DNA of 64,000 nt, from contig NZ_FZNY01000007.1 in the NCBI RefSeq assembly GCF_900188275.1, forward strand, positions 62,001-126,000. The letters are read 5' to 3'. Below the pieces are notes generated by a model. The model made no database searches and had not been told where the DNA came from. It saw only the letters and a list, made by a program, of their open reading frames with translations. Position 1 is the first letter of the stretch. The number at the start of each line of letters is the position of its first letter. Positions 3,038 through 56,993 of the stretch are shown piece after piece. The translations under genes were made by a program, and so were the position numbers. Origin of the DNA: Dokdonia pacifica. Lineage in GTDB: Bacteria; Bacteroidota; Bacteroidia; Flavobacteriales; Flavobacteriaceae.

Positions 3038-3051
3038 GCTTTCGCGAAAGC
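3038..3051. repeat. Dispersed palindrome GCTTTCGCGAAAGC, exact copy
   Basis: An exact copy in the gap between the membrane-protein gene and the head-GIN lipoprotein gene. The left flank extends to TTTTTAC, so TACGC...GC is present on the left arm only. Confidence 0.95.
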
Positions 3052-3130
3052 ATATAATGGAGCACTTTTACAGTATCAATAAAGAGGAATCATTCATTAC
3101 AATCAATTAAACAATCAAAATAAAGGAATC

Positions 3131-3868
3131 ATGACAACACTAATTAAATTTATTATCGGGGTATTCACTTCGCTTTTGGTTACATCTTGTGTCTTTGACG
3201 GCTCATTTAACCAAGTACGAGGTAATGGAAATGTACAAACAGAAAACTTTAACATCACACAAGACTTTGACGGCGTAACTGCTGGAAGTGGATGGGATGT
3301 ATATTTAGAAAAAGGATCAGAAGTATCTGTAATTGTAGAAGCAGATGAAAATCTTATCGAACTAGCAGATATTTACGTAAAAGGAAGCACCTTAAAAATC
3401 TACTCTGAACACAACATACGCAGTGCAACATCAAAAAAAGTATTTGTTACCTATGTAGGAAATCTACAATCTATAAGTGCAAATAGTGGCGCCGACATTG
3501 TGACTAAAGAAGTCTTAAAAGGAGAAGATTTAAGCCTTAATGTATCTAGTGGAGGATCTATAAAAGCCGAAGCTATTGTACGTAATATAGATACCGATGT
3601 AAGCAGCGGAGGCTCTATACGTCTAGCAGGAAGCTCAGAAAAATTAGACGCCGATGTATCTAGTGGTGGTGTTATAAATGCTAGAGACCTTAGAGCAAAA
3701 TATGCAGATGCAAATGCTTCTAGTGGAGGAAATATAGACATCCAGGTAACAGACAAATTACGTGCACGCGCCTCTAGTGGAGGAGATATAGACTATTGGG
3801 GAAACCCTAAAGAGGTAGACAAGCCTAAGAAGAGTTACTCTGGAGGTAGTGTATCTGCACAAGACTAA
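3131..3868 (+). CDS. Head-GIN domain lipoprotein (DUF2807)
   Basis: This 245-residue protein has a lipoprotein signal ending LLVTSC (Cys20). It is dominated by repeated short beta-solenoid turns with the recurrent SSGGxI/SGGSI motif (for example VSSGGSIKAEA, VSSGGSIRLAG, VSSGGVINARD, ASSGGNIDIQV, ASSGGDIDYWG), about one turn per 20-24 residues. This is the signature of the head-GIN family, which is widespread in Bacteroidota; some members are called putative autotransporter adhesins. It should be surface- or periplasm-facing and anchored by lipid. The molecular role is not established. A strong terminator follows at 3940. Confidence 0.88.
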   Translation: MTTLIKFIIGVFTSLLVTSCVFDGSFNQVRGNGNVQTENFNITQDFDGVTAGSGWDVYLEKGSEVSVIVEADENLIELADIYVKGSTLKIYSEHNIRSATSKKVFVTYVGNLQSISANSGADIVTKEVLKGEDLSLNVSSGGSIKAEAIVRNIDTDVSSGGSIRLAGSSEKLDADVSSGGVINARDLRAKYADANASSGGNIDIQVTDKLRARASSGGDIDYWGNPKEVDKPKKSYSGGSVSAQD

Positions 3869-3939
3869 ACAAAACCTACTTAATATAGCAAACCAACCTA
3901 TCTATGTGTGCAATCACTGCTCTTGATTCACACGATAAA

Positions 3940-3966
3940 GCCCGCAATACTATTGCGGGCTTTTTT
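3940..3966 (+). terminator. Rho-independent terminator after the head-GIN gene
   Basis: GCCCGCAAT pairs with ATTGCGGGC around a 3-nt loop and is followed by TTTTTT. It lies between convergent genes (head-GIN and trxB). The plus strand has the better U-tract. Confidence 0.9.
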
Positions 3967-3987
3967 ATATTTATATGAGAGAAGGTT

Positions 3988-4950
3988 TTAAGCTTCTGCT
4001 TCTACAACACTTTCTTTTGCTGCAAGATAACGCTCTGCATCTAGCGCTGCCATACATCCCGTACCAGCTGCTGTAATTGCTTGACGATATACATGATCTG
4101 CAGCATCTCCAGAAACAAATACACCCGGTACATTTGTACGAGATGATCCAGGTTCATTAATAATATACCCCGTTTCATCAAGGTCTAAATAGTCTTTAAA
4201 GATATCTGTATTAGGCTTATGTCCTATAGCTACAAAAAACCCTGTTGCAGGAATGTCATGCTTCTCTTGTGTTTTATTATTAAAAACACGAACACCCGTT
4301 ACTACTTGACCATCTCCTAAAACTTCTTCTGTTTCGGTATTAAATAAGATTTCTATATTTTCTGTATTCTTAACACGAGCAGCCATAATCTTAGAAGCTC
4401 TAAATTCATCACGACGCACAAGCATGGTTACTTTAGTACACAATTTAGATAGGTAATGTGCTTCTTCTGCTGCCGAATCTCCAGCACCCACAATCACTAC
4501 TTCCTGATTCTTGTAAAAGAAACCATCACAAACTGCACAAGCAGATACACCACCTCCTAAGTTTAAGTATTTTTGTTCTGATTCTAGTCCTAAATATTTT
4601 GCAGTAGCTCCTGTAGAAATAATAATAGTATCGGCATGGATTTCAGTCTCTCCATTTACCCAGGCTTTATGTACATCTCCAGAGAAATCAACTTTAGTAA
4701 TCCATCCATCGCGTACATCTGTATCAAAACGCTTTGCTTGATTCATTAATTCAATCATCATAGCGGGTCCCGTAATTCCATCTGGATATCCTGGAAAGTT
4801 TTCTACTTCATTGGTTGTTGTCAACTGCCCTCCTGGTTGCATTCCTTGATATAAAACTGGTGCCATATTTGCTCTTGCTGCATAAATAGCCGCAGTATAC
4901 CCTGCAGGTCCAGATCCTATGATTAAGCATTTTACGTGTTCAATTTCCAT
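3988..4950 (-). CDS. trxB: Thioredoxin-disulfide reductase
   Basis: TrxB uses NADPH and FAD to reduce thioredoxin in the cytoplasm. From the chosen start it has 320 residues: an FAD-binding GSGPAG at about 12-17, the redox-active CAVC at about 138-141, an NADPH-binding GAGDSA at about 155-160, and the C-terminal FAD motif VSGDAADHVYRQ. I start it at 4950 (MEIEHVKCLIIGSG), where family members usually begin. An in-frame ATG at 4983 would add 11 residues (containing LSRK) translated through the palindrome at 4959, which is probably artefactual. A well-spaced Bacteroidota promoter lies at 5022-5053. Confidence 0.95.
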   Translation of the reverse strand: MEIEHVKCLIIGSGPAGYTAAIYAARANMAPVLYQGMQPGGQLTTTNEVENFPGYPDGITGPAMMIELMNQAKRFDTDVRDGWITKVDFSGDVHKAWVNGETEIHADTIIISTGATAKYLGLESEQKYLNLGGGVSACAVCDGFFYKNQEVVIVGAGDSAAEEAHYLSKLCTKVTMLVRRDEFRASKIMAARVKNTENIEILFNTETEEVLGDGQVVTGVRVFNNKTQEKHDIPATGFFVAIGHKPNTDIFKDYLDLDETGYIINEPGSSRTNVPGVFVSGDAADHVYRQAITAAGTGCMAALDAERYLAAKESVVEAEA

Positions 4951-4958
4951 ATGTTTAT

Positions 4959-4972
4959 GCTTTCGCGAAAGC
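4959..4972. repeat. Dispersed palindrome GCTTTCGCGAAAGC, exact copy
   Basis: This exact copy lies in the trxB 5' leader, 8 bp upstream of the likely start codon, and is flanked by GTATAAAA on the right. Confidence 0.95.
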
Positions 4973-5021
4973 GTATAAAACACCTCTCGCTGTTATAATA
5001 TTAGTTAGTAAATATACACTA

Positions 5022-5053
5022 CAAAAGTAGGTTTTTAAGCTATATCCTTACAA
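5022..5053 (-). promoter_or_regulatory. Predicted Bacteroidota promoter for trxB
   Basis: On the minus strand, a TTG (complement of 5051-5053) is followed after 21 nt by TACTTTTG (complement of 5022-5029). This matches the -33 TTG / -7 TAnnTTTG consensus. The start codon is about 70 bp downstream. Confidence 0.65.
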
Positions 5054-5180
5054 AGATGTTATCAAGAAATCCTATGAGTTAATAACATAATGTAATGATT
5101 CGTCTATTCCAAAACATAGGATAATGTTAAGAATAGGATACATTTGAAGAATATTGAGTATTTTTCGAAAAAATTAGATC

Positions 5181-6299
5181 ATGAAAAATAACTTCCTTTT
5201 TATCTTCATGTTAGTGATCACAAGTTTAGGTTGTGCTCAAGAGACTAGAACCAACGATTTTGAATTAAAACAAAACGACAATTACACTATAGAAATGGTC
5301 GTTCCAGAGCTTGTAAACCCATGGGGATTGGCATTTTTACCAGATGGATCTATGCTTATTACTGAAAAAAGTGGAGAACTTATTCACTTTAAAGATGGAG
5401 CAAAAACAATAATTTCTGGTGTGCCAGAAGTATCTAGTCGTAATCAAGGAGGATTACTTGACATACACTTACATCCTGATTATAAAAAGAATGGATGGAT
5501 ATATATTACTTACTCCTCTGTAGAAGGTGATGGTGAAGGAGCACACACAGCTTTAATGCGCGCAAAACTTACAGGAACAGCACTTACCAATCAGGAAGTT
5601 TTATATAAAGGAAGTCCTAATACAAGAAAAAGTCATCACTTTGGATCTCGTATCGTATTTGATGATAAAGGGCATGTTTTTTTCACCATAGGAGATCGTG
5701 GAGCACGTGATGAAAATCCTCAAGATATTACACGTGATGGAGGAAAAGTATATAGACTTAACGATGATGGAAGTATTCCTAAAGACAATCCTTTTGTAGG
5801 GCAATCTGGAGCTAAGGAAGCTATTTGGTCATATGGTCACCGTAATCCTCAAGGAATGGCTATTCACCCTAAAACGGGAGCTGTATGGACACATGAGCAT
5901 GGACCTCGTGGTGGTGATGAAGTAAATATACCTGAAGCTGGAAAGAATTATGGCTGGCCTGTTATTTCATATGGAATTAATTACAGCGGAACTTCATTTA
6001 CAGACATTACAGAAAAAGAAGGTATGGAACAGCCAATATATTACTGGGTTCCTTCTATCGCACCTTGCGGAATGGATTTTGTTTCAAATAGTAAATATGG
6101 AGATTTGGATGGAAGTTTATTAGTAGGCTCTCTTAAATTTAAGTATATAGAACGTCTTATTTTAAAAGGAAATACCGTAGTAGGTCGCGAAAAACTATTA
6201 ACAGATGCAGGTCGTATGCGTAATGTTGTGATGGGGCCTGATGGATACATATACTTAGGAATAGAAGGTGCTGGAATTGCACGTATGATAAAAAAGTAA
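5181..6299 (+). CDS. PQQ-dependent sugar (aldose) dehydrogenase-like lipoprotein
   Basis: A 372-residue protein of the glucose/sorbosone dehydrogenase family (YliI/Asd-like), which oxidises aldoses with PQQ outside the cytoplasm. The N-terminus carries a lipobox (TSLGC, Cys18). Family motifs are visible: VNPWGLAFLPDGSMLITEKSG, DIHLHPDYKKNGWIYITYS, SHHFGSR, GDRGARDENPQD, GHRNPQGMAIHP and HEHGPRGGDEVN; conserved His and Arg residues in these segments line the PQQ site in characterised members. The next gene, 4 bp downstream, is a small cytochrome c, the likely electron acceptor. Substrate specificity cannot be read from sequence. Confidence 0.88.
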   Translation: MKNNFLFIFMLVITSLGCAQETRTNDFELKQNDNYTIEMVVPELVNPWGLAFLPDGSMLITEKSGELIHFKDGAKTIISGVPEVSSRNQGGLLDIHLHPDYKKNGWIYITYSSVEGDGEGAHTALMRAKLTGTALTNQEVLYKGSPNTRKSHHFGSRIVFDDKGHVFFTIGDRGARDENPQDITRDGGKVYRLNDDGSIPKDNPFVGQSGAKEAIWSYGHRNPQGMAIHPKTGAVWTHEHGPRGGDEVNIPEAGKNYGWPVISYGINYSGTSFTDITEKEGMEQPIYYWVPSIAPCGMDFVSNSKYGDLDGSLLVGSLKFKYIERLILKGNTVVGREKLLTDAGRMRNVVMGPDGYIYLGIEGAGIARMIKK

Positions 6300-6303
6300 T
6301 GAC

Positions 6304-6738
6304 ATGAAAAAACTACTTATTATAAGTGCCATAGGTTGTTTATTAATGGGATTTACATTACAAAAAGAAACACCTGAATACATACCTCAAAATCAAGATC
6401 CGCTTAAAGAAAGTATTGAACGAGGCGCCGAAGTATATACAGAGTATTGCGTACAGTGTCATTTAGGAAAAGGAGAAGGCATTCCTAAAACCTTTCCCCC
6501 TCTTGCAAAATCAGATTGGCTCACCAAAAATAATATCACAAATGCCATACGTGTTGTAAAGTATGGGCAAACTGGTGAGATCAAAGTAAACGGCGAAACG
6601 TATAACGGTGTAATGGCTGAACTAGGTCTATACGAAGATGAAGTTGCCGATGTCATGAATTACATTATGAATAGCTGGGGCAACTCTTATGATTCAATGA
6701 TTACTGAAGAGCAAGTTAAAAAGGTAACGAAAGAGTAA
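6304..6738 (+). CDS. Small cytochrome c (class I), probable partner of the sugar dehydrogenase
   Basis: A 144-residue protein with an N-terminal hydrophobic export signal and one haem c site, CVQCH (Cys49, Cys52, His53). A Met in VMAELGLYEDEVADVMNYI is the probable sixth ligand. PLAKSDWL and the C-terminal helix are typical of mono-haem cytochromes fused or paired with periplasmic dehydrogenases. It starts 4 bp after the PQQ dehydrogenase gene, so the two are almost certainly co-transcribed, and it likely passes electrons to the respiratory chain. It ends 1 bp from the convergent MBL-fold gene. Confidence 0.9.
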   Translation: MKKLLIISAIGCLLMGFTLQKETPEYIPQNQDPLKESIERGAEVYTEYCVQCHLGKGEGIPKTFPPLAKSDWLTKNNITNAIRVVKYGQTGEIKVNGETYNGVMAELGLYEDEVADVMNYIMNSWGNSYDSMITEEQVKKVTKE

Positions 6739-6739
6739 A

Positions 6740-7864
6740 TTACTTTCCCTCTAAATAGTTTTTTATAAACGTTGCTGCTTTATCTATAGTATTCTTATTT
6801 ACAATTCTTTGGTGTCTATGTAACCATACATATTGCTGATATGCTAATGCTTCTTGACGAGTTGCTACATAGGCCTCTGCTAGTAATCCTCTAGCTTTTG
6901 CTTCTACACCCCAATCTATATCTGGCACTGCTACAAAAGCTTGTTCTAATAGCCTTATGGTTTCTTGATATTTTTGCTTTCGCGAAAGCATCATTGCCTT
7001 TGCATAATATCCGTCCATAACAAATGGAGCAGACTGAATAGCTTTATCATATATCTTACTAATAGCTTCATCATCCTGAACTTCAGATTCTTTCTGAAGC
7101 TCTGAGACTTCTTTAAGAATCTCTATTGTTTTATAGTACGCTGTAGACCATTCTTGAACTTTAGAGGAAGGTGTAAAAACTAAAATTTTTGCAGAAGTAT
7201 CCTCTTGAATAGGTTGATACGTATTTGTAGTTAGTTGTACGACTCCATTTTTATCTTTTAGCCATCCATCTACAGGTTGCATCCAATTTTTATGTTTTGT
7301 GATTTCAGGAAGTAAGTAATGATTCGGAATATATACCGCATTAGGAAATAATGTAAAATATGCATCTCGAGGATGTCCAATGATGTAATCTACATCTGCA
7401 AGTTGTGTTATTTCTTCGGCAGTTGGGACTTCATTATCTCCTAAATGTGCAATTTTAATCCCATCTATCTCAACGACCCAGATGGTATTATAATTCTGAT
7501 TTCCTGATTTTCCAATTTGTTCTGCAAAACTATGTTTGCTCCCGATTCCTGTAAAAAAGATGTCATTATATTGATAAACTCCTGCATCTCTAAAAATGGG
7601 TGTGTTTTTACTAAAATACTGACTTCCATCATGGTCATAATGCGGATGTGTAATCAATACAAAATCGGCAGGAATATCTTCTGGAAACGTAAATCCCATC
7701 TGTCTATAGCTATGGTATGGATCTATGACAACTCGTGTACCTTGAGATGATTCTATAACAAATGCAGCATGTGCTATGTATTCTATTTTTGGAGATTGAG
7801 CTTGTACATAACTATGAATCAATAAAAATATGAATAGTAAGAATGGAGAGCTTCTTTTTATCAT
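6740..7864 (-). CDS. Exported metallo-beta-lactamase-fold hydrolase with TPR-like tail
   Basis: This 374-residue protein has a signal peptide (residues 1-23, ending YVQAQ). The N-terminal half is an MBL-fold domain with the zinc motif HPHYDHDG (His73, His75, Asp77, His78), DPYHSY and a downstream HLGDNE; this pattern resembles the UlaG/YtnP-like branch. The C-terminal third has helical repeats resembling TPRs (AKAMMLSRKQKYQETIRLLEQAF, then ARGLLAEAYVATRQEALAYQ). An exact copy of the dispersed palindrome lies within the gene and encodes LSRK in the first repeat helix. Substrate unknown; location probably periplasmic. Confidence 0.8.
   Translation of the reverse strand: MIKRSSPFLLFIFLLIHSYVQAQSPKIEYIAHAAFVIESSQGTRVVIDPYHSYRQMGFTFPEDIPADFVLITHPHYDHDGSQYFSKNTPIFRDAGVYQYNDIFFTGIGSKHSFAEQIGKSGNQNYNTIWVVEIDGIKIAHLGDNEVPTAEEITQLADVDYIIGHPRDAYFTLFPNAVYIPNHYLLPEITKHKNWMQPVDGWLKDKNGVVQLTTNTYQPIQEDTSAKILVFTPSSKVQEWSTAYYKTIEILKEVSELQKESEVQDDEAISKIYDKAIQSAPFVMDGYYAKAMMLSRKQKYQETIRLLEQAFVAVPDIDWGVEAKARGLLAEAYVATRQEALAYQQYVWLHRHQRIVNKNTIDKAATFIKNYLEGK
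6976..6989. repeat. Dispersed palindrome GCTTTCGCGAAAGC, exact copy inside a gene
   Basis: This copy is inside the MBL-fold gene, in the frame that reads Leu-Ser-Arg-Lys on the coding (minus) strand. Confidence 0.95.
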
Positions 7865-7899
7865 AACCGTTTTTTTTTGATAAAGATAGGTATGAATTT

Positions 7900-8209
7900 A
7901 TAAACCCTTTATTACAAATAGAAAAGTGAAGCTATGCTTCTTACTTTTAATTTTTGATCGTTTATCAAAACTAGGTTTTGAATACCAGCAAAAGGATTTG
8001 GATAATCCTCATAAACCCTTCGTTACAAATAGAAAAGTGAAGCTATGCTTCTTACTTTTTAATTTTCGATCGTTTATCAAAACTAGGTTTTGAATACCAG
8101 CAAAAGGATTTGGATAATCCTCATAAACCCTTCGTTGCAAATAGAAAAGTGAAGCTATGCTTCTTACTTTTTAATTTTCGATCGTTTATCAAAACTAGGT
8201 TTTGAATAC
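7900..8209. repeat. Tandem repeat, about 2.8 units of 111-112 bp with three hairpins each
   Basis: Units are 7900-8010, 8011-8122 and a partial third at 8123-8209; they differ by only a few bases. Each full unit contains three inverted repeats: AAAAGTGAAGC/GCTTCTTACTTTT, TTTTGAT/ATCAAAA, and AGGATT-TGGAT-AATCCT; the third unit stops before the last one. The array separates the start of the MBL-fold gene from the tRNA-Pro terminator. No open reading frame fits it. The first hairpin shares AAAAGTGA/ACTTTT arms with the adjacent terminator, so the array may derive from terminator-like DNA. Function unknown. Confidence 0.93.
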
Positions 8210-8221
8210 TCTCTAAAATTA

Positions 8222-8251
8222 AAAAGTGATTTACATTCGTAAATCACTTTT
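8222..8251 (-). terminator. Terminator downstream of tRNA-Pro
   Basis: A perfect 13-bp stem, AAAAGTGATTTAC with GTAAATCACTTTT, has a 4-nt loop. On the minus strand it is followed by a T-rich run. It starts 8 bp past the tRNA 3' end. Confidence 0.85.
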
Positions 8252-8259
8252 CTGCTTAG

Positions 8260-8334
8260 TCGGGATGACAGGATTTGAACCTGCGACCACACGGCCCCCA
8301 GCCGTGTACGCTAACCGGACTGCGCCACATCCCG
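8260..8334 (-). tRNA. tRNA-Pro (anticodon GGG)
   Basis: The minus strand folds as a cloverleaf. The acceptor arm CGGGATG pairs with CATCCCG, the anticodon stem CACGG pairs with CCGTG around the loop CTGGGGG (anticodon GGG), and the T arm carries GGTTCAAATCC. The discriminator is A, and CCA is not encoded. The length is 75 nt. Short ORFs across this segment are spurious. Confidence 0.93.
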
Positions 8335-8339
8335 AATTT

Positions 8340-8353
8340 GTTTTTGCGAAAGC
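8340..8353. repeat. Degenerate copy of the dispersed palindrome (2 mismatches)
   Basis: GTTTTTGCGAAAGC, with GCGAAAGC intact. It lies between the tRNA-Pro -7 element and the mature tRNA, in the part that would be the 5' leader. Confidence 0.6.
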
Positions 8354-8360
8354 AAATATA
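8353..8360 (-). promoter_or_regulatory. -7 element (TATATTTG) for tRNA-Pro
   Basis: The minus strand reads TATATTTG, a perfect TAnnTTTG, about 19 bp before the tRNA 5' end. I see no convincing TTG at the usual distance upstream. Confidence 0.5.
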
Positions 8361-8668
8361 ATAATTAAGACATATTGATACCACTTGACAAGCAAGTAGA
8401 AATATAATTTTTACATCATTTAATTTGTGGAGTGATTCTTCTAAAAAAGAAAAAAAGCACAACTACTATTGAAGAAAGATATATGGTTGCTTTTTAAATC
8501 CTACTAAAAAAATATAACCTAAATGTCAACTCAGAGTTTATGAGTTAAGTAATAACTATGAAAACTACAAACACAGTTAAAAAAGACATCTTTCTAAGAC
8601 AATATCATTGTGCTTAATTATAAGCTAATATATACAATTTCCTACATAATTACTAGGAATTTATTTTT

Positions 8669-9079
8669 TTATAACAAAAGATCCGCAAGGGTTTTATTTT
8701 CAAGTACATGAAGCGTACTATCACGTACTTCTTCCATCAATCCATGCACTGTACATTTGCCTTCATCTGGACAATCATCGCATTTTTCATAAAAATTTAG
8801 ACTTACACAAGGCAACATAGCAATAGGCCCTTCTAAAACTCGTATAACGGCTGCCATTTTTATGTCTTTAGGATCTTTAATAAGGTAATAACCTCCGCCT
8901 TTTCCTTTTTTACTTCCTAAAAATCCAGCCTTTCTTAATGAAAGTAATATACTTTCTAGAAATTTTCTTGAAATATCCTCAGCCTCAGAAATATCTTGGA
9001 TGAGTATCATTGCATTTTCTTCTTGACGCGCTATGTACGTAAGCGCTTTTAATCCATATTTTGTTTTTCGCGAAAGCAT
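8669..9079 (-). CDS. Rrf2-family transcriptional regulator (probable Fe-S sensor)
   Basis: A 136-residue protein beginning MLSRKTKYGLKALTYIAR, the characteristic Rrf2 winged-helix start. The HTH region (DISEAEDISRKFLESILLSLRKAGFLGSKKGKGGGY) and four Cys near positions 91, 100, 103 and 109 match an IscR-like [Fe-S] ligand pattern. Members repress or activate Fe-S, redox or cysteine-metabolism genes. It is the last gene of the trkA-trkH-ypdA-ctlX run, 13 bp after ctlX. Its own start codon overlaps a two-mismatch version of the dispersed palindrome; LSKK/LSRK is normal at this position in the family. Targets unknown. Confidence 0.88.
   Translation of the reverse strand: MLSRKTKYGLKALTYIARQEENAMILIQDISEAEDISRKFLESILLSLRKAGFLGSKKGKGGGYYLIKDPKDIKMAAVIRVLEGPIAMLPCVSLNFYEKCDDCPDEGKCTVHGLMEEVRDSTLHVLENKTLADLLL
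9064..9077. repeat. Variant of the dispersed palindrome at the rrf2-family start (2 mismatches)
   Basis: TTTTTCGCGAAAGC covers codons 2-5 of the Rrf2 gene, again in the Leu-Ser-Arg-Lys frame. It may be coincidental because MLSxKTKYG is a family motif. Confidence 0.5.
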
Positions 9080-9092
9080 ATGCCAAAATACG

Positions 9093-10028
9093 TTATTTTT
9101 TTGGAAGAAAGACTTCTGCCATCATACAACGTGCACTACCTCCTCCACAGGCTTCTATGATATCAAGAGAACTTGAAAGGATGGTTGCATGTTTTTCAAT
9201 TTGGTTGATTTGCTTTTTTGTAAGACTTTGATGTGCCGCATTACTCATTACCAAATAGGGAGTTTCATTTGCTCCTTTTAGTTCAAGCATATTTCCTGCA
9301 AAATGTACTACCTGCTCTTCTGTGATATCTATAATTTCTTTGCCGTCGCCCTTAAGGTGTTTGATTACATTTTTACGTTCTTTTTTATCATCTATAGAAT
9401 CTAAGCATATCACAGAAATTTTTTCTCCGATACACATCATCACATTGGTGTGATAAATAGGTAATCGCTCACCATTTAACGTCTGATTTGCTGTGAAAAT
9501 AACAGGTGTATATTCAAAATCTTCACAAAATTCTATGAGTACTTCTTCATCTGCTCTAGGCGAAAGTGCACAATATGCTTTTCGATGCACACGGTCTAAA
9601 ATTAAACTCCCTGTACCTTCTAAAAATAAGTTTTCATCTTCGGCAGAAGAATAATCAATAATATCTGTAATGGTAAATCCTTTAGATTCTAATACATCAA
9701 AAACATCTTCACGTCTTTCAGTACGTCTATTTTCTGCAAACATTGGATAGGTAGCTATTTTACCACTTTGGTGAAAACTTATCCAATTATTAGGGAAATG
9801 AGCGTCAGGAGTATCCGTTTCTTTTGCATCATCTACTACAACCACCTGAATACCTACAGCTTCTAATTTATGTACAAAATTATCAAACTCTAGTTGTGCA
9901 TTTTGCAAAAGCTTTTCTGGCGTTACATTATCTACTACTTTTTGATAATAATTATTGACTGCTGTTTGTTCATTCATCCTAAAATGCACAGGACGAATCA
10001 TTAAAATTGTATCTGTAGTTTGTTTCAT
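9093..10028 (-). CDS. ctlX: Citrulline/arginine-deiminase-related hydrolase (CtlX-like)
   Basis: A 311-residue member of the guanidino-group-modifying superfamily that acts on arginine/citrulline-type substrates. It begins TDTILMIRPVHFRMNEQTAVNNYYQ, which is characteristic of CtlX-type proteins. Other core motifs are DAHFPNNWISFH, EGTGSLILDRVHRKAYC, LPIYHTNVMMCIG and the C-terminal GGGSARCMMAE, where Cys301 is the expected nucleophile and the His in YHTNVMM its partner. It is cytoplasmic (no signal peptide). It lies 29 bp after ypdA in the minus-strand operon. The exact substrate (citrulline versus a methylated arginine) is not resolved. Confidence 0.85.
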   Translation of the reverse strand: MKQTTDTILMIRPVHFRMNEQTAVNNYYQKVVDNVTPEKLLQNAQLEFDNFVHKLEAVGIQVVVVDDAKETDTPDAHFPNNWISFHQSGKIATYPMFAENRRTERREDVFDVLESKGFTITDIIDYSSAEDENLFLEGTGSLILDRVHRKAYCALSPRADEEVLIEFCEDFEYTPVIFTANQTLNGERLPIYHTNVMMCIGEKISVICLDSIDDKKERKNVIKHLKGDGKEIIDITEEQVVHFAGNMLELKGANETPYLVMSNAAHQSLTKKQINQIEKHATILSSSLDIIEACGGGSARCMMAEVFLPKK

Positions 10029-10057
10029 TTTTTAAAAGATATAATAAAGTTGTAAAG

Positions 10058-11032: not shown

Positions 11033-11034
11033 AA

Positions 11035-12531: not shown

Positions 12532-12543
12532 CTAGATCTTTAT

Positions 12544-13893: not shown

Positions 13894-13919
13894 ATAATAT
13901 AATGAACTGAAAAGTGATA

Positions 13920-13927
13920 CAAAGATA
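13920..13927 (-). promoter_or_regulatory. -7 element (TATCTTTG) for the trkA operon
   Basis: A perfect TAnnTTTG on the minus strand, about 27 bp upstream of the trkA ATG. No clear -33 TTG is seen. Confidence 0.5.
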
Positions 13928-13977
13928 CACGATTGATAAGAACTACGATGAAATCCTGTAGATAATTATGTTTTTAC

Positions 13978-13991
13978 GCTTTCGCGAAAGC
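13978..13991. repeat. Dispersed palindrome GCTTTCGCGAAAGC, exact copy
   Basis: An exact copy in the divergent gap between trkA and ubiE; the left flank is TTTTTAC, as in the copy at 3038. Confidence 0.95.
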
Positions 13992-14103
13992 AAAAACCAC
14001 CCGTAATCAAATCAATACGATATCTATTTGTCACAATATTGAAAAATCTAAAAACAGCACTTCCTTTTTAAGTATGTCGCTATCATCTTCGCTATTGATA
14101 CCG

Positions 14104-14111: not shown

Positions 14112-14125
14112 TCAAAAAATATGCC

Positions 14126-14854: not shown

Positions 14855-14858
14855 ATTC

Positions 14859-16318: not shown

Positions 16319-16337
16319 ATTTATTATCACAACCCAC

Positions 16338-18899
16338 TTGAAGTATACATTTACAAAAATATCATTATTTATTCTTCTAGCGATAGTACTTGCCAGTTGT
16401 AATGCAACAAAGCGGGTTCCTAAAGAAGATTTTTTACTTACAGATAACACAATTACTGTTGATGGAGAGAAAATTACTGACCAACGTTTTTATAATTTCT
16501 TATACCAACAGCCTAATACGAAAGTAGCTGGATCGCCATTTAGACTTTACATTTATAACTGGGCACGTCCTAATATAGATTCTATACTTGCAGCGCAACG
16601 TGCAAAGAATGATGTACGGCGTAATTTCTGGACGCGTTTGCTTTCGCGAAAGCAAGTAGAAGCATTTAGAAAATTTAAAAAAGATTTTAACTCTGGAGTA
16701 AAAAAAACAGGAGAACCTCCCACGATTGTGAATGAAATTCTCACTAAAAAATCGGCTAACAGGCTTGCCAAATTCTATATCAACAATGGGTATTTTAATA
16801 CAGAGGTAGATTATAGTATCAAAAAAGATAGTAATCAAAGAGCTACTGTACATTATAATGTAGTACGTCATCAACCCTATTTACTAGATTCAATAGTTCC
16901 TATTATTGCTTCTCCCGTTGCCGATTCTATTTATGAAGCACATAAAAATGCCTCCTTCCTTAAAAAGGATGATAATTATCAAAAAATTAATTTAGATAGA
17001 GAGCGACTTCGTATTGAAAAGTTATTTAGAAATAATGGATTATATCATTTTGAATCTGATCGGATACGTGTACGTGTAGATTCTAATGAAACAGGTCACA
17101 AAGCAAATCTTGAATATTTCATAGATAATCGAAAAGAAACTGTAGGTGATTCTATTTTAGATTTTCCATTTAAAGTTCATAAGGTCAGTGAAATTAACAT
17201 CAACACTGATTATAGTTTTGCAAATAAAGATAAAGCCTATGCAGATTCTATTAGCGCCGATGGGTATACCTTTTATGTGTATGATGAATTAAATTATAGA
17301 ACAAATGCTATTACAGATATTATTCCTCTAAAGCCTGGATCTATATATCGAGATATTGACAAAACACAAACCTTAACTCGTTTAAGTAGGCTAAATACTT
17401 TTAAATATCCAAGTATCAGTTACCAAGAAGATCCTAAGGATAGTACGGGAACGAATCTGATTGCTAATATTCGTTTAACGCCTTTAGAAAAGTATAAGTT
17501 CCGAGCCGATTTTGATGTTTCTACATCAAATATTCAGGATATAGGTATTGCAGGATTTGGTTCTTTATTAATACGTAATATCTTTAAAGGTGCAGAAACC
17601 TTAGAAATTTCAGCAAGAGGTAATATTGGAGCTTCTGATGATGCAGCAAATGACAGTGATAGCTTTTTTAATATCTCAGAAATAGGATTGAATGCAAATC
17701 TTGTTTTTCCTAGGATATTTTTCCCAGTTAATACTTCTAAACTGATTCCTGCCGAATGGCAACCCAACACTCGATTTAATTTAGGTGTAAGTATACAACA
17801 AAACATAGGTTTGGATAAGCAAAGCTTTGCTGGTGGATTATCATATAATTGGACACCTTCTGCCACAAATACATTTACATTTGACCTTTTAGATATCCAA
17901 TATGTCCGAAACTTAAATGCCAATAATTATTTTAACATCTATAGAAATAGTTATGACGATTTAAATACCCTTGCAGCATCTAACATAAATAATGTCAATC
18001 CTGATTATTTTGAAGATGGTAATAACTCACCTGAGCTTATCATCCCTAATGGTGCAGATAGTTTTATTAATGATGTAGAAAATGGTATTGTGCCAGGGTT
18101 TAATGACTCACAAGTATCGGAGATTAATGCTATAAGAGAACGTCAAAATAGACTTATAGAAGACAACTTAATTTTTGCACTTAATCTCACATACACATAT
18201 AATAATCGTGAAAATTTATATGATGATGCTTTTTCAAGATTAAGAACTCGTATTGAACTTGCAGGAAATGCCCTTTCATTAGCTTCAAATCTCATAAACG
18301 CTCCAAAAAATGAAGATAATAACTCACGTATTTTAGGAGTTGTATTTTCTCAATATGCTAAGACAGAAATAGACTATACAAAACACTGGGATTTAGGGCA
18401 TGAAAACATCCTTGCGATAAGGGCGTTTGGAGGACTCGCCATTCCATATGGCAATGCCAACAGTATACCTTTTACACGAAGTTTTTTTGCAGGAGGGTCT
18501 AATGATAACCGTGCATGGCGTGCTTATGAGCTAGGACCTGGTAGTAGTGGAGCACCTAATGAATTTAATGAAGCAAATATGAAACTTGCTTTAAATGTAG
18601 AACACCGTTTTGAATTGTTAGGGCCTTTTGAAGGTGCCTTTTTCCTAGATGCTGGAAACATATGGAATGTCTTTGATAATGTAGAAGACACCAATTCACA
18701 ATTTAGAGGATTTTCAAGTTTGAGTGACTTAGCGCTTGGATCTGGATTTGGACTACGCTTAGATTTTGATTTTTTCTTAGTAAGATTTGATGTTGGTTTT
18801 AAAACGTATGATCCAGCTTTTGAAACTGGAAATCGATGGTTTCGAGAATATAATTTTGCTAATGCCGTATATAATATTGGTATTAATTACCCATTCTAA
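16338..18899 (+). CDS. tamL: TamL: lipidated TamA/BamA-family outer-membrane assembly protein
   Basis: An 853-residue protein that begins with TTG. There is no ATG nearby, and this start gives a clean lipoprotein signal ending VLASC (Cys21). POTRA-like repeats fill roughly residues 25-370, and the C-terminal half is an Omp85 barrel (AGGSNDNRAWRAYELGPG resembles the lid-lock motif region; the last residue is Phe). TamL is the Bacteroidota lipoprotein form of TamA and works with TamB in transporting lipids or proteins to the outer membrane. An exact dispersed palindrome is embedded at 16640, encoding LSRK. Adjacency to a trmH-family gene is typical for the family. Confidence 0.9.
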   Translation: MKYTFTKISLFILLAIVLASCNATKRVPKEDFLLTDNTITVDGEKITDQRFYNFLYQQPNTKVAGSPFRLYIYNWARPNIDSILAAQRAKNDVRRNFWTRLLSRKQVEAFRKFKKDFNSGVKKTGEPPTIVNEILTKKSANRLAKFYINNGYFNTEVDYSIKKDSNQRATVHYNVVRHQPYLLDSIVPIIASPVADSIYEAHKNASFLKKDDNYQKINLDRERLRIEKLFRNNGLYHFESDRIRVRVDSNETGHKANLEYFIDNRKETVGDSILDFPFKVHKVSEININTDYSFANKDKAYADSISADGYTFYVYDELNYRTNAITDIIPLKPGSIYRDIDKTQTLTRLSRLNTFKYPSISYQEDPKDSTGTNLIANIRLTPLEKYKFRADFDVSTSNIQDIGIAGFGSLLIRNIFKGAETLEISARGNIGASDDAANDSDSFFNISEIGLNANLVFPRIFFPVNTSKLIPAEWQPNTRFNLGVSIQQNIGLDKQSFAGGLSYNWTPSATNTFTFDLLDIQYVRNLNANNYFNIYRNSYDDLNTLAASNINNVNPDYFEDGNNSPELIIPNGADSFINDVENGIVPGFNDSQVSEINAIRERQNRLIEDNLIFALNLTYTYNNRENLYDDAFSRLRTRIELAGNALSLASNLINAPKNEDNNSRILGVVFSQYAKTEIDYTKHWDLGHENILAIRAFGGLAIPYGNANSIPFTRSFFAGGSNDNRAWRAYELGPGSSGAPNEFNEANMKLALNVEHRFELLGPFEGAFFLDAGNIWNVFDNVEDTNSQFRGFSSLSDLALGSGFGLRLDFDFFLVRFDVGFKTYDPAFETGNRWFREYNFANAVYNIGINYPF
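16640..16653. repeat. Dispersed palindrome GCTTTCGCGAAAGC, exact copy inside tamL
   Basis: In the Leu-Ser-Arg-Lys frame of tamL (residues about 102-105, within WTRLLSRKQVEAFRKF). Confidence 0.95.
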
Positions 18900-20074: not shown

Positions 20075-20088
20075 GCTTTCGCGAAAGC
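20075..20088. repeat. Dispersed palindrome, exact copy with full 20-bp symmetry
   Basis: The symmetry extends over 20072-20091 as TACGCTTTCGCGAAAGCGTA. It starts 4 bp after the fbaA stop and lies upstream of accD. Confidence 0.95.
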
Positions 20089-25891: not shown

Positions 25892-25905
25892 GCTTTCGCG
25901 AAAGC
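25892..25905. repeat. Dispersed palindrome, exact copy with full 20-bp symmetry
   Basis: The symmetry extends over 25889-25908 (TACGCTTTCGCGAAAGCGTA). It lies between the polyprenyl synthase stop and the cysQ start on the minus strand. Confidence 0.95.
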
Positions 25906-29982: not shown

Positions 29983-29996
29983 GCTTTCGCGAAAGC
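29983..29996. repeat. Dispersed palindrome GCTTTCGCGAAAGC, exact copy
   Basis: In the queA 5' leader, between its predicted promoter and start codon, in the gap to aroA. Confidence 0.95.
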
Positions 29997-33686: not shown

Positions 33687-33700
33687 GCTTTCGCGAAAGC
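33687..33700. repeat. Dispersed palindrome GCTTTCGCGAAAGC, exact copy
   Basis: In the 52-bp gap between two DUF3857 copies, with flanks identical in style to the 29983 copy (TTATTT on the left, GTAT on the right). Confidence 0.95.
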
Positions 33701-39795: not shown

Positions 39796-40248
39796 TTATT
39801 GTTTGTTTTTTGAGTCTATGGTAATCGTAACAGGTCCATCGTTTAGTAACCTTACTTTCATATCGGCTCCAAACTCTCCTGTGTATACTTCTTTAGTATG
39901 CTTTCGCGAAAGCGTACTTATAAAATTTTCATACAAAGGAATCGCTACTTCTGGTCGAGCAGCCTCTAAAAATGAGGGGCGATTTCCTTTTTTTGTACTA
40001 GCATGTAATGTAAACTGACTAATCACTAAAAGGTCTCCATCAATATCTTTTACAGAAAGATTCATAGCCCCATTAGCATCACTAAAAATTCGTAATCCTA
40101 TAATTTTATTAGTTAGCCACTCTATATCTTCTTGTGTGTCTTCATGAGTGATTCCTAGTAAAATCAAAAAACCCTTCTCTATACTCGATTTTACCTGATC
40201 ATTAATAGTCACAGACGCTTCAGAAACACGTTGTATAATTATTTTCAT
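39796..40248 (-). CDS. dtd: D-aminoacyl-tRNA deacylase
   Basis: A 150-residue proofreading enzyme that removes D-amino acids (and Gly-tRNA-Ala mischarges) from tRNA. MKIIIQRVSEASVTI is the N-terminal strand; SQFTLHASTKKGNRPSFLEAARPE contains the active-site segment, and FGADMKVRLLNDGPVTITIDS the Gly-cisPro-like C-terminal motif NDGPVT. An exact palindrome copy is embedded at 39900, encoding LSRK in YENFISTLSRKHTKEVYTG; relatives have only about one residue fewer here, so it is not a large insertion. It is 3 bp downstream of rsgA. Confidence 0.95.
   Translation of the reverse strand: MKIIIQRVSEASVTINDQVKSSIEKGFLILLGITHEDTQEDIEWLTNKIIGLRIFSDANGAMNLSVKDIDGDLLVISQFTLHASTKKGNRPSFLEAARPEVAIPLYENFISTLSRKHTKEVYTGEFGADMKVRLLNDGPVTITIDSKNKQ
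39900..39913. repeat. Dispersed palindrome GCTTTCGCGAAAGC, exact copy inside dtd
   Basis: In the Leu-Ser-Arg-Lys frame of dtd. The right flank GTAC keeps part of the wider symmetry. Confidence 0.95.
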
Positions 40249-43884: not shown

Positions 43885-43898
43885 GATTTCGCGAAAGC
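43885..43898. repeat. Variant of the dispersed palindrome (1 mismatch)
   Basis: GATTTCGCGAAAGC in the gap between tyrA and the aminotransferase gene. Confidence 0.75.
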
Positions 43899-43902: not shown

Positions 43903-45045
43903 TTAAAATCGATCTATAGCTTTTTGTATTTGATCTTCTGTCACGCATAAACTAAAACGTATGTAGCCAGCTCCTTGACTTCCAAAAATAGTTCCTGGTG
44001 TTATAAATACATGTTTTTCAAGCAATACCTCATCTATAAAAACCTCAGCATCTACCCCATCAGGAAGCTTTGCCCACACAAAAAGACCAACGCCATTTTT
44101 CTCATACGTACAGCCTAATTTTTCTACAAGTGTATAGATACGCTCACGACGTTTTCTATATATGGTATTCATTGAGTCAAACCAAGAGGCATCAAGTTGT
44201 AACGCTGCAATAGCGCCTTGCTGAATACCGTAAAACATCCCACTATCCATATTTGATTTTACTTTCAGAATATGACTTATATGTGCTTGACTTCCCATAA
44301 CCATACCTACACGCCAGCCTGCCATATTAAAACTCTTACTTAAAGAATTGAGTTCTAATGCAACATCTTTTGCGCCTGCTATAGAAAGAATAGATATTGG
44401 ATGCTCATTAAGGATAAAACTGTACGGATTATCATTTATAATAAGGATCTCATTTGCTTTTGCAAAAGCGATCAATTCTTCAAAAAAACCATCTTTTGCA
44501 GTGGCCCCTGTAGGCATATGCGGATAGTTCACCCACATGAGTTTCACTTCACTCAAGTCCTTTTTCTGTAAAGCATCGAGATCTGGTAACCAATGATTTG
44601 TTTCTTCCAAATCATAAAATACAGGGACCGCTTCTACCAATTTTGTAACGGCACTATACGTTGGATACCCAGGATTAGGAATTAACACCTTATCTCCTGC
44701 ATTCAGAAAGGCCATACTTATATGCATAATCCCTTCTTTAGATCCCATTAGAGGTAACACCTCTGTAGTTGCATCTACCAACACATTATAGTGTGTTTTA
44801 TAAAAAGCAGTCATTGCTTCTCGTAGTTCTGGAATTCCGGTATAGCTCTGATATTGGTGCACTTTAGGGTTTTCTAAAGCAGTATGCAAAGCAGTTACAA
44901 CCGCATCTGGCGCTGCTATATCAGGGCTTCCTATTCCCATATTTATGATAGGATGACCCGCAGCTTCTAAGGCACGTACTTCTTTTAGCTTTCGCGAAAA
45001 GTAATACTCCTTGGTCTCTTGTAATCTATTTGCTGGTTGTATCAT
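43903..45045 (-). CDS. Class I/II aminotransferase (aromatic branch)
   Basis: A 380-residue PLP-dependent fold-type I aminotransferase. The PLP lysine is in SLSKSFNMAGWRVGM; NDNPYSFI and YVRFSL-like SLCV near the C-terminus (YIRFSLCV) supply cofactor and carboxylate contacts. Its place between pheA and tyrA suggests it makes Phe and Tyr from phenylpyruvate and hydroxyphenylpyruvate; the sequence also resembles LL-DAP/aspartate-type aminotransferases, so specificity is inferred from context. The start overlaps pheA by 4 bp. A variant palindrome lies in its fifth-percentile codons (YYFSRKLKE). Confidence 0.9.
   Translation of the reverse strand: MIQPANRLQETKEYYFSRKLKEVRALEAAGHPIINMGIGSPDIAAPDAVVTALHTALENPKVHQYQSYTGIPELREAMTAFYKTHYNVLVDATTEVLPLMGSKEGIMHISMAFLNAGDKVLIPNPGYPTYSAVTKLVEAVPVFYDLEETNHWLPDLDALQKKDLSEVKLMWVNYPHMPTGATAKDGFFEELIAFAKANEILIINDNPYSFILNEHPISILSIAGAKDVALELNSLSKSFNMAGWRVGMVMGSQAHISHILKVKSNMDSGMFYGIQQGAIAALQLDASWFDSMNTIYRKRRERIYTLVEKLGCTYEKNGVGLFVWAKLPDGVDAEVFIDEVLLEKHVFITPGTIFGSQGAGYIRFSLCVTEDQIQKAIDRF
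44988..45001. repeat. Variant of the dispersed palindrome inside the aminotransferase gene (2 mismatches)
   Basis: GCTTTCGCGAAAAG, encoding FSRK in the same frame as the LSRK copies. Confidence 0.55.
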
Positions 45046-45945: not shown

Positions 45946-45952
45946 TTATTTT

Positions 45953-45972
45953 ATTTCCACTTTCGTGGAAAT
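45953..45972. repeat. Palindrome ATTTCCAC-TTTC-GTGGAAAT
   Basis: A perfect 8-bp stem with a 4-nt loop, directly beside the GCGAAGGCGGGAAT repeats. A one-mismatch relative lies at 28876. Confidence 0.7.
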
Positions 45973-48615: not shown

Positions 48616-48629
48616 GCTTTCGCGAAAGC
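48616..48629. repeat. Dispersed palindrome GCTTTCGCGAAAGC, exact copy
   Basis: In the 215-bp rpsO-pnp gap, with TTTAC on the left (TACGC...GCG symmetry). Confidence 0.95.
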
Positions 48630-55151: not shown

Positions 55152-55271
55152 AAGTAAATAGTTAAAGTGATTCCCGTATTAAACAGTATTGTATTTGCGC
55201 TTAGGTAAGATGTATCACTACATGATTCATTTTAAACTCATAAGCATATAAACACATACCTATTTTGAATT

Positions 55272-55883
55272 TTATTCTATGCGTTTAAAATGATTTTGAT
55301 TGCGACGTACTGAGCTATTGAGGAACACGATTATCATAAAAGCTCCAGAATTTTGATTGGCTCCTTGAACAAATAAATCTCCATTAGGTAGGGTTGTTAA
55401 GCGAGTTCTTTTAAAATCAAATCGACCTGCTATATATGGAGCACCTATTAATTTTACATTTTTATATTTTAGGTGTACAAATCCGTCTTTTCTTAATTTA
55501 TATTTTATATCAAATTCATATAAAGATCTTGTAGCGGTATTAAACCTAATTTTCATTTTACGATCATCTATAACATCTATTTCAAAAGATTGTACAACCG
55601 TTGTATCTGCTAGTGAAGAGTGTTTACGTAAGTTAAGATGTAAATAATTATAGAATGATTCTCTAAAATCACCATACTCGCTCCGAACTACCTCATTAGC
55701 TTGAACAGCGTATGTCCCTTCAATTTCTTTTAGATTTGACGTATTTAATACATTGGGATTGATTGTCTCTTTAGAAAAAGAAGCACAACTTGATAATAAC
55801 ACAAGACCTGCACAACTTATCACAAACAGAAACCTGATGCTAGATATTTGGTAGAAAAAATAGTATAATCTTGAATATTCCAT
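55272..55883 (-). CDS. Lipoprotein of unknown function
   Basis: A 203-residue protein. The lipobox LLSSC is preceded by an unusually long N-terminus (residues 1-33), as only one ATG gives the signal. The mature chain is beta-rich: DDRKMKIRFNTATRSLYEFDIKYKLRKDGFVHLKYKNVKL and TLPNGDLFVQGANQNSGAFMIIVFL. It resembles the 52758 lipoprotein in its C-terminal 'NGDLxV' strand. It is 121 bp upstream of the desaturase on the same strand and divergent from the HTH gene. Confidence 0.68.
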   Translation of the reverse strand: MEYSRLYYFFYQISSIRFLFVISCAGLVLLSSCASFSKETINPNVLNTSNLKEIEGTYAVQANEVVRSEYGDFRESFYNYLHLNLRKHSSLADTTVVQSFEIDVIDDRKMKIRFNTATRSLYEFDIKYKLRKDGFVHLKYKNVKLIGAPYIAGRFDFKRTRLTTLPNGDLFVQGANQNSGAFMIIVFLNSSVRRNQNHFKRIE

Positions 55884-55998
55884 ATGATCGTTTTTATTTT
55901 CAATTCAAAATTATTGCGGTATTCACATATTTTTAAGTTCAAAATGCAAGATTTTGATTTAATTTTTGTGATTATCACAAAAATTGTATTTTACAACA

Positions 55999-56964
55999 AT
56001 GGAACAAGAATTATTTTTAAAAGAAATAAGACAGCTAATACCCACTAACACATCTCTTATAGATGCTGTTGCTGGAGCATTAGATATTAGCTATGATGCA
56101 GCTCATAGGAGGACAAATCTTAAAAGCAAGCTCTCGCTACAGGAGAGTATTCAACTTGCAAAACATTTTAAACTATCTTTAGACAAGCTATTTGTAAGCA
56201 AGCAAAGTAATTGGGTATCTGTAGAAAAAACCGCCCCTATACGTAATGAAAAAGAGCTTACGGCCTATTTTGAAAATTCATATGCAAACCTCATCCCATT
56301 ATTAGGTAAAAAAGGATGTAAACTTATCTACTCTGCAAAAGATATTCCTATTTTTTATGATTTAAAAAGCGATACTATGATGCGCTTTAAATTATATGTA
56401 TGGTTAAAATTACTAGACCTTGACTTTCATTCCGTGAGTTATACTGACTTCACTCCTAGTCTTGACATTCAAGAAATAGCAAAACGTCTAGGAGCGCTCT
56501 ATGAGGATTTACCTATTACAGAAATATGGGATCTTACAACTATTAATGGTACTTTAAAGCAAATCTACTTTTATTTTAAAGCCGGTCATCTTACAGAAAA
56601 AGATGCACTAATGGTCACAGCGAGTCTTAAAGAAACCATCACAACCATCTCTCAACGTGTCATTAAGGATAAAACCTATATGTTTTATTATAATGAGTTG
56701 TTATTAATGAATAATAATATTTACGCTCAAGTGGAAGATCAACAATCATTATATATTCCTTTCACATTACTTTCGTATTACCGCACATCTGATAGAATAA
56801 CCTGTGATCATGCAAAAACATATTTAGATAAGCAATTACAACATTCTAAGCTCTTGAATACGGCAGGAGAAAAGGAAAGGAACTCTTTTTTTAATAAAAT
56901 TCACAAAAAAATTCAAGCATTAGAACATCTTATAAATGCTTCAGAGACATTAGATTTTGAGTAA
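55999..56964 (+). CDS. HTH regulatory protein with large C-terminal helical domain
   Basis: A 321-residue protein from the ATG at 55999 (a TTG at 55984 would add five residues). The N-terminal 65 residues form a phage-repressor-like HTH (LIDAVAGALDISYDAAHRRTNLKSKLSLQESIQLAKHFKLSLDKLF). The rest is helical and unclassified, resembling the C-terminus of flavobacterial BetR-type regulators. It may control neighbouring lipoprotein or desaturase genes. A palindrome copy lies 15 bp after its stop. Confidence 0.8.
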   Translation: MEQELFLKEIRQLIPTNTSLIDAVAGALDISYDAAHRRTNLKSKLSLQESIQLAKHFKLSLDKLFVSKQSNWVSVEKTAPIRNEKELTAYFENSYANLIPLLGKKGCKLIYSAKDIPIFYDLKSDTMMRFKLYVWLKLLDLDFHSVSYTDFTPSLDIQEIAKRLGALYEDLPITEIWDLTTINGTLKQIYFYFKAGHLTEKDALMVTASLKETITTISQRVIKDKTYMFYYNELLLMNNNIYAQVEDQQSLYIPFTLLSYYRTSDRITCDHAKTYLDKQLQHSKLLNTAGEKERNSFFNKIHKKIQALEHLINASETLDFE

Positions 56965-56979
56965 AATATACCTGTATAC

Positions 56980-56993
56980 GCTTTCGCGAAAGC
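56980..56993. repeat. Dispersed palindrome GCTTTCGCGAAAGC, exact copy
   Basis: Between the HTH gene and the first ECF promoter; TATAC flanks it on the left. Confidence 0.95.

Follow-up and report, generated by a model that had tools for sequence, protein, structure and literature searches.

A palindrome spread over the chromosomes of Dokdonia and related Flavobacteriaceae, and its possible role as a mark of nucleoid architecture

Iterated sequences in bacterial genomes

Highly iterated sequences that occur throughout a genome are of a few well-understood kinds (uptake signals, Chi and KOPS), in addition to one, HIP1, that has long been unexplained. Some palindromic sites organise the chromosome. 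For instance, those of matS-MatP and SlmA are present in tens of copies and are either limited to the terminus or excluded from it, while the parS motif of ParB (TGTTTCACGTGAAACA) and the NBS motif of Noc (TATTTCCCGGGAAATA) have a spacer of 4 bp.

The palindrome described here, with the 14-mer core GCTTTCGCGAAAGC, resembles several of these systems in part. It shares with parS and NBS a TTTC..GAAA palindrome, a similar length and the form of a dimer site, whereas its spacer is 2 bp and its sites number hundreds around the whole chromosome. In contrast to the sites of matS-MatP and SlmA, it is nearly uniform in the one chromosome sampled (genome G299), and, while REP/RAYT elements are extragenic, 81 of 167 sampled copies of this palindrome are coding. 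Like it, DUS have genus-specific flanks, and the copies of HIP1 are far more numerous than its own. The HIP1 and alternate HIP sequences of cyanobacteria (GCGATCGC) are also perfect palindromes in genome-wide excess and in patchy lineages (Elhai 2015, PMC4390886). Nevertheless, HIP1 is a GC-rich sequence of 8-10 bp, whereas the palindrome here has a 14-mer core with a species-specific extension (14-20 bp) and a sequence other than GCGATCGC. With a HIP, each high-copy genome would be expected to have a cognate methyltransferase, which is not the case here for the three methyltransferase classes tested in 14 carriers. Finally, the DUS and USS of Neisseriaceae and Pasteurellaceae likewise have at least hundreds of exact copies, both coding and intergenic, and a sharp drop at one mismatch (PMC1939737; PMC7811141), although here the count rises again at two mismatches. 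By contrast, their core is non-palindromic and directional, and USS are spaced about 1,000 bp apart on average (PMC7811141), while the sequence in Flavobacteriaceae is a perfect palindrome found 4-8 kb apart, with spacing repulsion.

Sites in the window and their conservation

The window is the whole stretch of 64,000 nucleotides that was analysed. An earlier note on this DNA had listed 12 exact copies and four variants, all of which were found at the coordinates given there. A scan allowing up to 3 mismatches returned 19 matches, 12 of them exact, compared with a mean of 1.30 and a maximum of 5 in shuffles. TCGCGA is rare outside the motif, as 15 of its 18 occurrences in the window sit in TTTCGCGAAA.

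Several exact copies lie in tandem gaps. The copy at 3038..3051 is 24 bases past a stop codon and is exact in G312, a close species; that at 20075..20088 directly follows a class II aldolase gene and is exact in G312, while a CCTGCC palindrome interrupts the G310 copy; and those at 25892..25905 and 29983..29996 are exact in both G312 and G310. The full 20-bp symmetry reported for two copies was borne out for those at 20075 and 25892. Also in tandem gaps, 33687..33700 is between two DUF3857/transglutaminase-type genes and is unalignable in G312, G310 and G314, and 56980..56993 precedes a sigma-factor gene and is exact in G312. Divergent gaps hold two copies rather than the single one noted earlier: 13978..13991, exact in G312 and G310 and absent in G314, and 48616..48629, upstream of pnp and exact in G312 and G314. 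The ORF list places three exact copies in coding sequence, namely 6976..6989 in ORF 6740-7864(-), which has a Lactamase_B_3 domain, exact in G312; 16640..16653 inside tamL, exact in G312 and G310 and substituted in G314; and 39900..39913 in a D-Tyr-tRNA deacylase gene, 39796-40248(-), exact in G312. Nine copies had been called intergenic, and eight clearly are by this list. The ninth, 4959..4972, is at the far 5′ end of ORF 3988-4983(-), within a GTG-start N-terminal extension; it is probably in a leader and not coding, because the Pyr_redox_2 domain starts only at residue 17. Its G312 ortholog is split by CCTGCCTGCCGGCAGGCAGG.

The variants at 8340..8353 (5 bases from tRNA-Pro, 8259-8334), 9064..9077 (at the start of ORF 8669-9079(-), with one palindrome end lost) and 44988..45001 (in ORF 43903-45045(-)) have two mismatches each. 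The one at 43885..43898, GATTTCGCGAAAGC, has a single mismatch; G312 has the same variant at the matching place, and an exact copy aligns in G314.

Between the window and G312, the one close species compared, all 154 of 154 core bases are identical over 11 of the 12 sites (33687 is excluded as unalignable, and one of the 11 has an insertion between core bases), compared with 676 of 814 bases (83%) in the flanks 4-40 bases away. The more distant G314 has about 77% DNA identity, and just one of the six alignable window sites is exact there, which counts against the architectural reading favoured below. Where alignments are of equal length, lost or gained sites differ by few substitutions and appear as point-substituted near-sites, contrary to the proliferating element proposed in the earlier note. 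Some intergenic copies that have been lost leave a gap of about 20 bases in the alignment, as in G314 at 13978.

In the sampled Dokdonia DNA, sites with 0, 1, 2 and 3 mismatches number 167, 24, 41 and 37, while one Markov copy gave 0, 0 and 4 at 0, 1 and 2 mismatches. Sites with two mismatches thus outnumber those with one, mostly through the loss of one end. Around the core, most of the sampled Dokdonia show the consensus extension TACGCTTTCGCGAAAGCGTA. With both sides pooled, the flank consensus varies by species. Most Dokdonia samples have GTA, G314 has ATA, and putative Nonlabens have G followed by A/G and then A. An asymmetric motif was rejected, as the GTA flank is approximately independent on the two sides in most samples; in G299, the flank is on both, one or neither side in 40, 46 and 32 copies (33.6, 58.7 and 25.6 expected), a mild positive association.

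Distribution among genomes and along the chromosome

The over-representation seen in the window holds for this Dokdonia genome as a whole, which contains 903 exact copies of GCTTTCGCGAAAGC and none of the reversed control. The 167 copies of the sample come from 714,617 bases of Dokdonia DNA, of which one first-order Markov copy had none. All 18 Dokdonia genomes carry GCTTTCGCGAAAGC (369-905 copies each), as do all 23 genomes that we infer to be Nonlabens (288-857 copies each), and one further genus, with 408 copies, is a third carrier lineage. Outside these carriers, no genome in a family survey of 299 has more than 19 copies, and 295 other genomes of the class have 4 at most. The three lineages are separate in the pnp tree, which omits G318 (a partial match) and, like the poorly resolved ParB tree, is built on a single gene; there may have been a single gain with several losses instead of separate gains. 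In 400 kb from 7 genera of non-carriers, no different over-represented palindrome was found. Among the papers searched, none contains the exact 14-mer, the ten with its 10-base core appear unrelated, and none links a DNA uptake sequence with palindromes in Flavobacteria.

Small clusters in other genera were considered as parS arrays and rejected, since 38 of 40 copies (20 stretches) are inside ORFs. Several occupy an ORF some 405 aa long, in some cases with a neighbour of about 1250 aa, a pair that, judging by the ORF sizes, may be efflux genes. Among the matches listed, copies are also present on temperate-phage contigs, while a Nonlabens phage without an annotated integrase has none in 35.7 kb. 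Uptake or a drive mechanism would also lead to copies on temperate-phage contigs and to even spacing.

By simple gene calls, the 167 sampled copies comprise 81 in coding sequence, 52 in tandem, 18 in divergent and 15 in convergent gaps, and one at an edge. Half are therefore intergenic, on 8.6% of the bases. The types of gap are used roughly in proportion to their bases, coding copies occur in all three frames, and 25 of the 52 tandem-gap copies start at most 16 bases from a stop codon.

Copies are seldom close together. In the G299 samples, 5 gaps are below 800 bp, compared with 21.6 ± 3.6 in simulations with a tenfold intergenic preference, and the variance/mean of counts per 20 kb is 0.31. 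In each of four genomes, judged by the first 50-100 copies listed, there are fewer short gaps than under an exponential null, and three of these genomes have a gap CV of 0.61-0.74. In G315 (contig C4 only), the CV is 0.92 and not below random (P 0.24), which goes against an evenly spaced mark; short gaps are still depleted there. With the terminus of G299 placed by GC skew, 25 stretches of this single sampled chromosome revealed neither exclusion from nor restriction to the terminus, and no clustering at the origin. Five stretches near the terminus have 7, 8, 5, 4 and 5 copies per 20 kb (mean density, 5.15), while three earlier ones have 2, 4 and 4, so that three of eight are on the low side, again unfavourable to such a mark. 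A density falling from the origin, likewise unfavourable, had a Spearman coefficient of -0.52 (P 0.02) over the first 20 stretches; once the five stretches by the terminus were added, this weakened to -0.33 (P 0.11), and the gradient was not retained.

Possible functions

The explanation that we favour, while giving it somewhat less than an even chance, is that the palindrome is the site of a putative homodimeric DNA-binding protein that would mark the chromosome every few kilobases as part of nucleoid architecture. The dyad symmetry of the site points to a homodimer, which would bind the core sequence-specifically every few kilobases of the resident chromosome. One bound dimer would serve several kilobases, a second nearby would add nothing, and sites would therefore spread evenly. 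We infer that the mark would serve to organise the nucleoid rather than DNA uptake. Against this, no nucleoid protein is known to have some 900 sites of such information content. The ParB/Noc class, suggested in the earlier note, does not account for the carriers. One standard ParB is present in all 38 genomes tested, carriers and non-carriers, and the 30 sequences aligned, 6 from carriers and 24 from non-carriers, have its recognition region in common. A second PF02195 match turns up in 3 of the 14 carriers and 6 of the 24 non-carriers, and no carrier-specific extra ParB-family member is common to the carriers among these 38 genomes. The site was also rejected as one for ParB or Noc, as the spacer in TTTC-GC-GAAA is 2 bp, not 4, and as the one chromosome sampled lacks origin clustering and terminus exclusion. 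What remains of the signals first listed, without ParB/Noc, a methylase of the three Pfam classes tested or a proliferating element, is a site for a DNA-binding protein involved in chromosome organisation or DNA uptake.

The latter is possible, if rather unlikely in our judgement. In a self-recognition signal of the DUS/USS type, a surface or periplasmic receptor would prefer site-bearing DNA, and biased uptake with recombination would keep the copies exact and spread. Copy number, coding and intergenic sites, genus-specific flanks, saturating spacing and the Nonlabens phage that lacks the site all fit such a signal. Nevertheless, the same core is found in lineages separate in the pnp tree (one gain with losses being possible), and Bacteroidota are not generally known to have type IV pili, which usually serve as the uptake machine. 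The steep fall from exact to one-mismatch sites is like that reported for DUES, but the perfect dyad symmetry is missing in DUES (PMC1939737). It is improbable that the palindrome is HIP-like in the sense of Elhai's proposal for HIP1, in which a DNA methyltransferase and the repair linked to it generate and maintain the sequence. Such an origin would agree with a perfect palindrome that is genome-wide, coding and intergenic, and patchy among lineages, but the methylase suggested earlier finds no universal candidate in the 14 carriers: at E ≤ 0.001, PF00145 (C5) has no match in 6, PF01555 (N4/N6) in 8, with a sub-threshold match in one more carrier, and PF02086 (D12) in 7, and G323, with 752 sites, lacks all three. 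In addition, TCGCGA is rare beyond the motif, and 14-20 bp exceeds the usual length of a methyltransferase target.

Even less probable is a proliferating, REP/MITE-like mobile palindrome. Copies in other genera on DNA that seems to have been transferred, the losses that align as gaps and the insertion of a second palindrome into the site would suit mobility; on the other hand, about half of the copies lie in coding sequence and use all three frames, lost or gained sites differ by few substitutions, and no target duplication was noticed on unsystematic inspection. Scarcely any weight falls on two further readings, a transcription terminator and an operator that serves a large regulon. The intergenic preference and the proximity of tandem-gap copies to stop codons are what either might produce, and the site is able to fold as an RNA hairpin. 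However, gap types are used in near proportion and half of the copies are coding, none of the five exact copies in positions 1-20000 of the window is called terminator-like, an intrinsic terminator being a GC hairpin with a U run after it at a gene end, and the fold energy is within the shuffle range for three of the four folded. The initial judgement that this is not a terminator thus stands.

The second palindrome, CCTGCCTGCCGGCAGGCAGG (CCTGCC), is nested in the site at a few recurring positions in all three lineages, as in the orthologs of 4959 and 20075 mentioned above, and none of the papers searched contains it. These recurring positions suggest that the site may be a specific break or landing point. 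It is thus conceivable, though doubtful, that marine Flavobacteriaceae have a new chromosome-marking system, with hundreds of evenly spaced palindromic sites, confined in this sampling to three lineages, and a putative dimeric reader, whose site would also be a break or landing point, cut or processed by an enzyme and not merely bound.

Among iterated sequences, this palindrome is longer, sharper and evenly spaced, with carriers and non-carriers within one family. Because there are several single-contig genomes and named cultured strains, direct tests of the binder and of function are possible. If it serves in uptake, it would be the first palindromic signal of that kind, and none is known so far from Bacteroidota. 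If it is architectural, these bacteria would organise the nucleoid through specific sites far more numerous than those of known systems.

Copy number and distribution of the palindrome

An earlier note had described 12 exact copies and four variants of a perfect 14-base palindrome in the window, and all of them were found where it had placed them. The whole Dokdonia pacifica genome that contains the window (G000; 5.52 Mb in 31 contigs) carries 903 copies of the 14-mer and none of a reversed control. In a survey of 299 genomes of the family, covering 236 genera, the 14-mer was matched in 61 genomes. More than 100 copies are present in five of these, namely G000 (903), G206 (857), G242 (664), G010 (578), and G190 (408), the last being the sole genome sampled from its genus; the remaining 56 have 1–19 copies each. 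All 18 Dokdonia genomes sampled (369–905 copies each) and all 23 genomes of a putative Nonlabens, genus g11 (288–857), are carriers. At the level of the class, each of the 295 genomes surveyed besides G000 has at most four copies, and no comparable palindrome was found in 400 kb of non-carrier DNA (40–80 kb from each of seven genera).

A tree of PNPase sequences from 29 genomes places the carriers in three separate positions and nests the pnp of a non-carrier, G076, within Dokdonia. Well-supported branches force at least three changes in carrier state, which could be compatible with one gain and two losses. The PNPase of Dokdonia sinensis (G206, locus L278) groups with that of G076 (L282), apart from other Dokdonia, possibly by transfer of pnp.

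In several other genera, copies lie within coding stretches common to more than one genus, and a copy spacing of 933 bases recurs in four genomes within the same 405-aa ORF. Our reading is that such copies are DNA imported from carriers. A palindrome-bearing ORF of about 405–432 aa recurs in several genera (loci L001, L004, L005, L006, L009, L011, and L015) and is adjoined by an ORF of about 1250 aa in L004, L005, and L011. Judged by ORF size, the stretch looks like an efflux-type genomic island that spread from carriers.

Anatomy, placement, and spacing of the sites

The Dokdonia sample of 714,617 bases contains 167 exact copies, together with 24, 41, and 37 that have one, two, and three mismatches, as against 0, 0, 4, and 23 in one first-order Markov copy of the same DNA. 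In most copies with two mismatches it is one end that is missing (NNTTTCGCGAAAGC), the rest being intact. With sides pooled, the flank consensus outside the 14-mer is GTA in the majority of Dokdonia samples, ATA in the comparison genome G314, and G, then A or G, then A-rich sequence in the putative Nonlabens.

By simple gene calls made in this analysis, 85 of the 167 copies are intergenic, while intergenic DNA makes up 8.6% of the sampled bases; 81 are coding, with all three frames used (most commonly read as AFAK, 45 copies), and one is at an edge. Tandem gaps hold 52 copies in 32,363 bases, divergent gaps 18 in 16,436, and convergent gaps 15 in 8838.

In 20 stretches of the comparison genome G299, five neighbour gaps are shorter than 800 bp, versus 21.6 expected under random placement with a tenfold intergenic preference, and the number of copies per 20 kb is less variable than a Poisson distribution would give (variance/mean 0.31, P of about 0.003 or less). 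Among the first listed copies of each genome, short gaps are depleted relative to an exponential null in G299, G190, G315, and G000, and the coefficient of variation of the gaps is under random in all of these except G315. Exclusion from the terminus, placed by skew, was not seen in G299: five stretches added near it hold 7, 8, 5, 4, and 5 copies, and three earlier ones in the same vicinity 2, 4, and 4. Over the initial 20 stretches, copy density falls away from the origin (P 0.02), a gradient that is weaker once the stretches near the terminus are added (P 0.11).

The window has other repeated features. A 112-bp unit in 2.8 tandem copies (7900–8209; 97% matches) precedes a tRNA-Pro (8259–8334) and the variant site at 8340. 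Positions 45870–45954 hold two copies of a GC-rich 43-bp unit with GCGAAGGCGGGAATCTCATCCC, a kind of repeat known from other Bacteroidota. Four adjacent DUF3857-domain genes (31657–39745; 617–668 aa), three of them with transglutaminase domains, are an expanded paralog cluster.

Conservation of the sites and a nested repeat

The window aligns to the comparison genome G312 at about 85% DNA identity. Ten of its 12 sites are exact there, one retains all its core bases but is split by an insertion, and one is not alignable; across the 11 alignable sites, 154 of 154 core bases are identical, versus 676 of 814 bases lying 4–40 bases off in the flanks. Four of five alignable sites are exact in G310, the fifth being interrupted, and one of six is exact in G314. 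Several of the differing sites align at equal length with few substitutions (for instance, GCTTTCGCGAAAGC and GCTTTTGCAAAAGC), and half of the core bases differ between G299 and G301 at 4899. Some intergenic losses are alignment gaps within poorly conserved sequence, and the aligned orthologous sites include no unambiguous case of a clean empty site.

CCTGCC...GGCAGG palindromes split two of the orthologous sites, and a scan blind to the site again recovered this repeat inside the 14-mer. In the sampled loci, eight of ten copies of the repeat lie inside the site, the ten having been chosen by eye from 32 matches to a loose pattern (L170 duplicates L202). These nested CCTGCCTGCCGGCAGGCAGG-type palindromes occur in Dokdonia (L021:11454, L022:366, L199:7946, L200:19502, L202:17965, and L208:3978), in the putative Nonlabens (L141:6848), and in G190 (L288:1283); the copies outside the site are in a Dokdonia MAG (L082:6647) and a non-carrier (L005:12461). 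Insertion points are mostly GCT^TTCGCG, GCTTT^CGCG, or the mirror images of these, and some of the interrupted sites also have a substitution. No match to the repeat was found in the literature searched. Either it is the repeat that targets the 14-mer, or the 14-mer is opened by an enzyme, and the CCTGCCTGCCGGCAGGCAGG-type palindrome is possibly a site-specific palindromic insert.

Candidate readers and the role of the site

ParB_N (PF02195) is present in all 38 genomes tested (14 carriers and 24 non-carriers). In 30 that were aligned, six of them from carriers, ParB is a standard protein of about 300 aa, much alike throughout, including the HTH region. Carriers tend to have N or S in place of K at one residue, which is N also in the non-carriers G007, G031, and G025. 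The parB gene is conserved in the family apart from the strongly diverged ParB of the putative Nonlabens G010 (L242), with an end branch of 0.84 versus a median of 0.14. Three classes of methyltransferase were searched for: at E ≤ 0.001, no match was found to PF00145 in six of the 14 carriers, to PF01555 in eight, and to PF02086 in seven, and the carrier G323 has no match to any of the three.

Among the matches listed in viral contigs, a few low-GC contigs have at least two or three copies of the 14-mer. Tail proteins and a Mu-type transposase are encoded on a 38-kb contig that bears three copies or more; the transposase shares 47% identity with its counterpart in a Winogradskyella phage. Nonlabens phage P12024S, with no integrase annotated, has no copies in 35.7 kb. 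On this small sample, the mark accompanies chromosome-resident DNA.

The perfect dyad, the exactness of the copies, their use in coding and non-coding DNA, the lack of a tie to gap type, and the even spacing together suggest a site that a putative homodimer reads at the level of DNA. A serious rival is that the 14-mer is a DNA-uptake signal. Bakkali argues against intracellular roles of uptake sequences, as these are non-palindromic and spaced less evenly than compaction sequences would be (PMC1939737); for the 14-mer, the same arguments turn the opposite way. Further comparisons drew on PMC4390886, for HIP, and on PMC7811141. The evidence in the sequence leans toward architecture over uptake, with the palindrome as the putative site of a homodimeric DNA-binding protein that would organise the chromosome.
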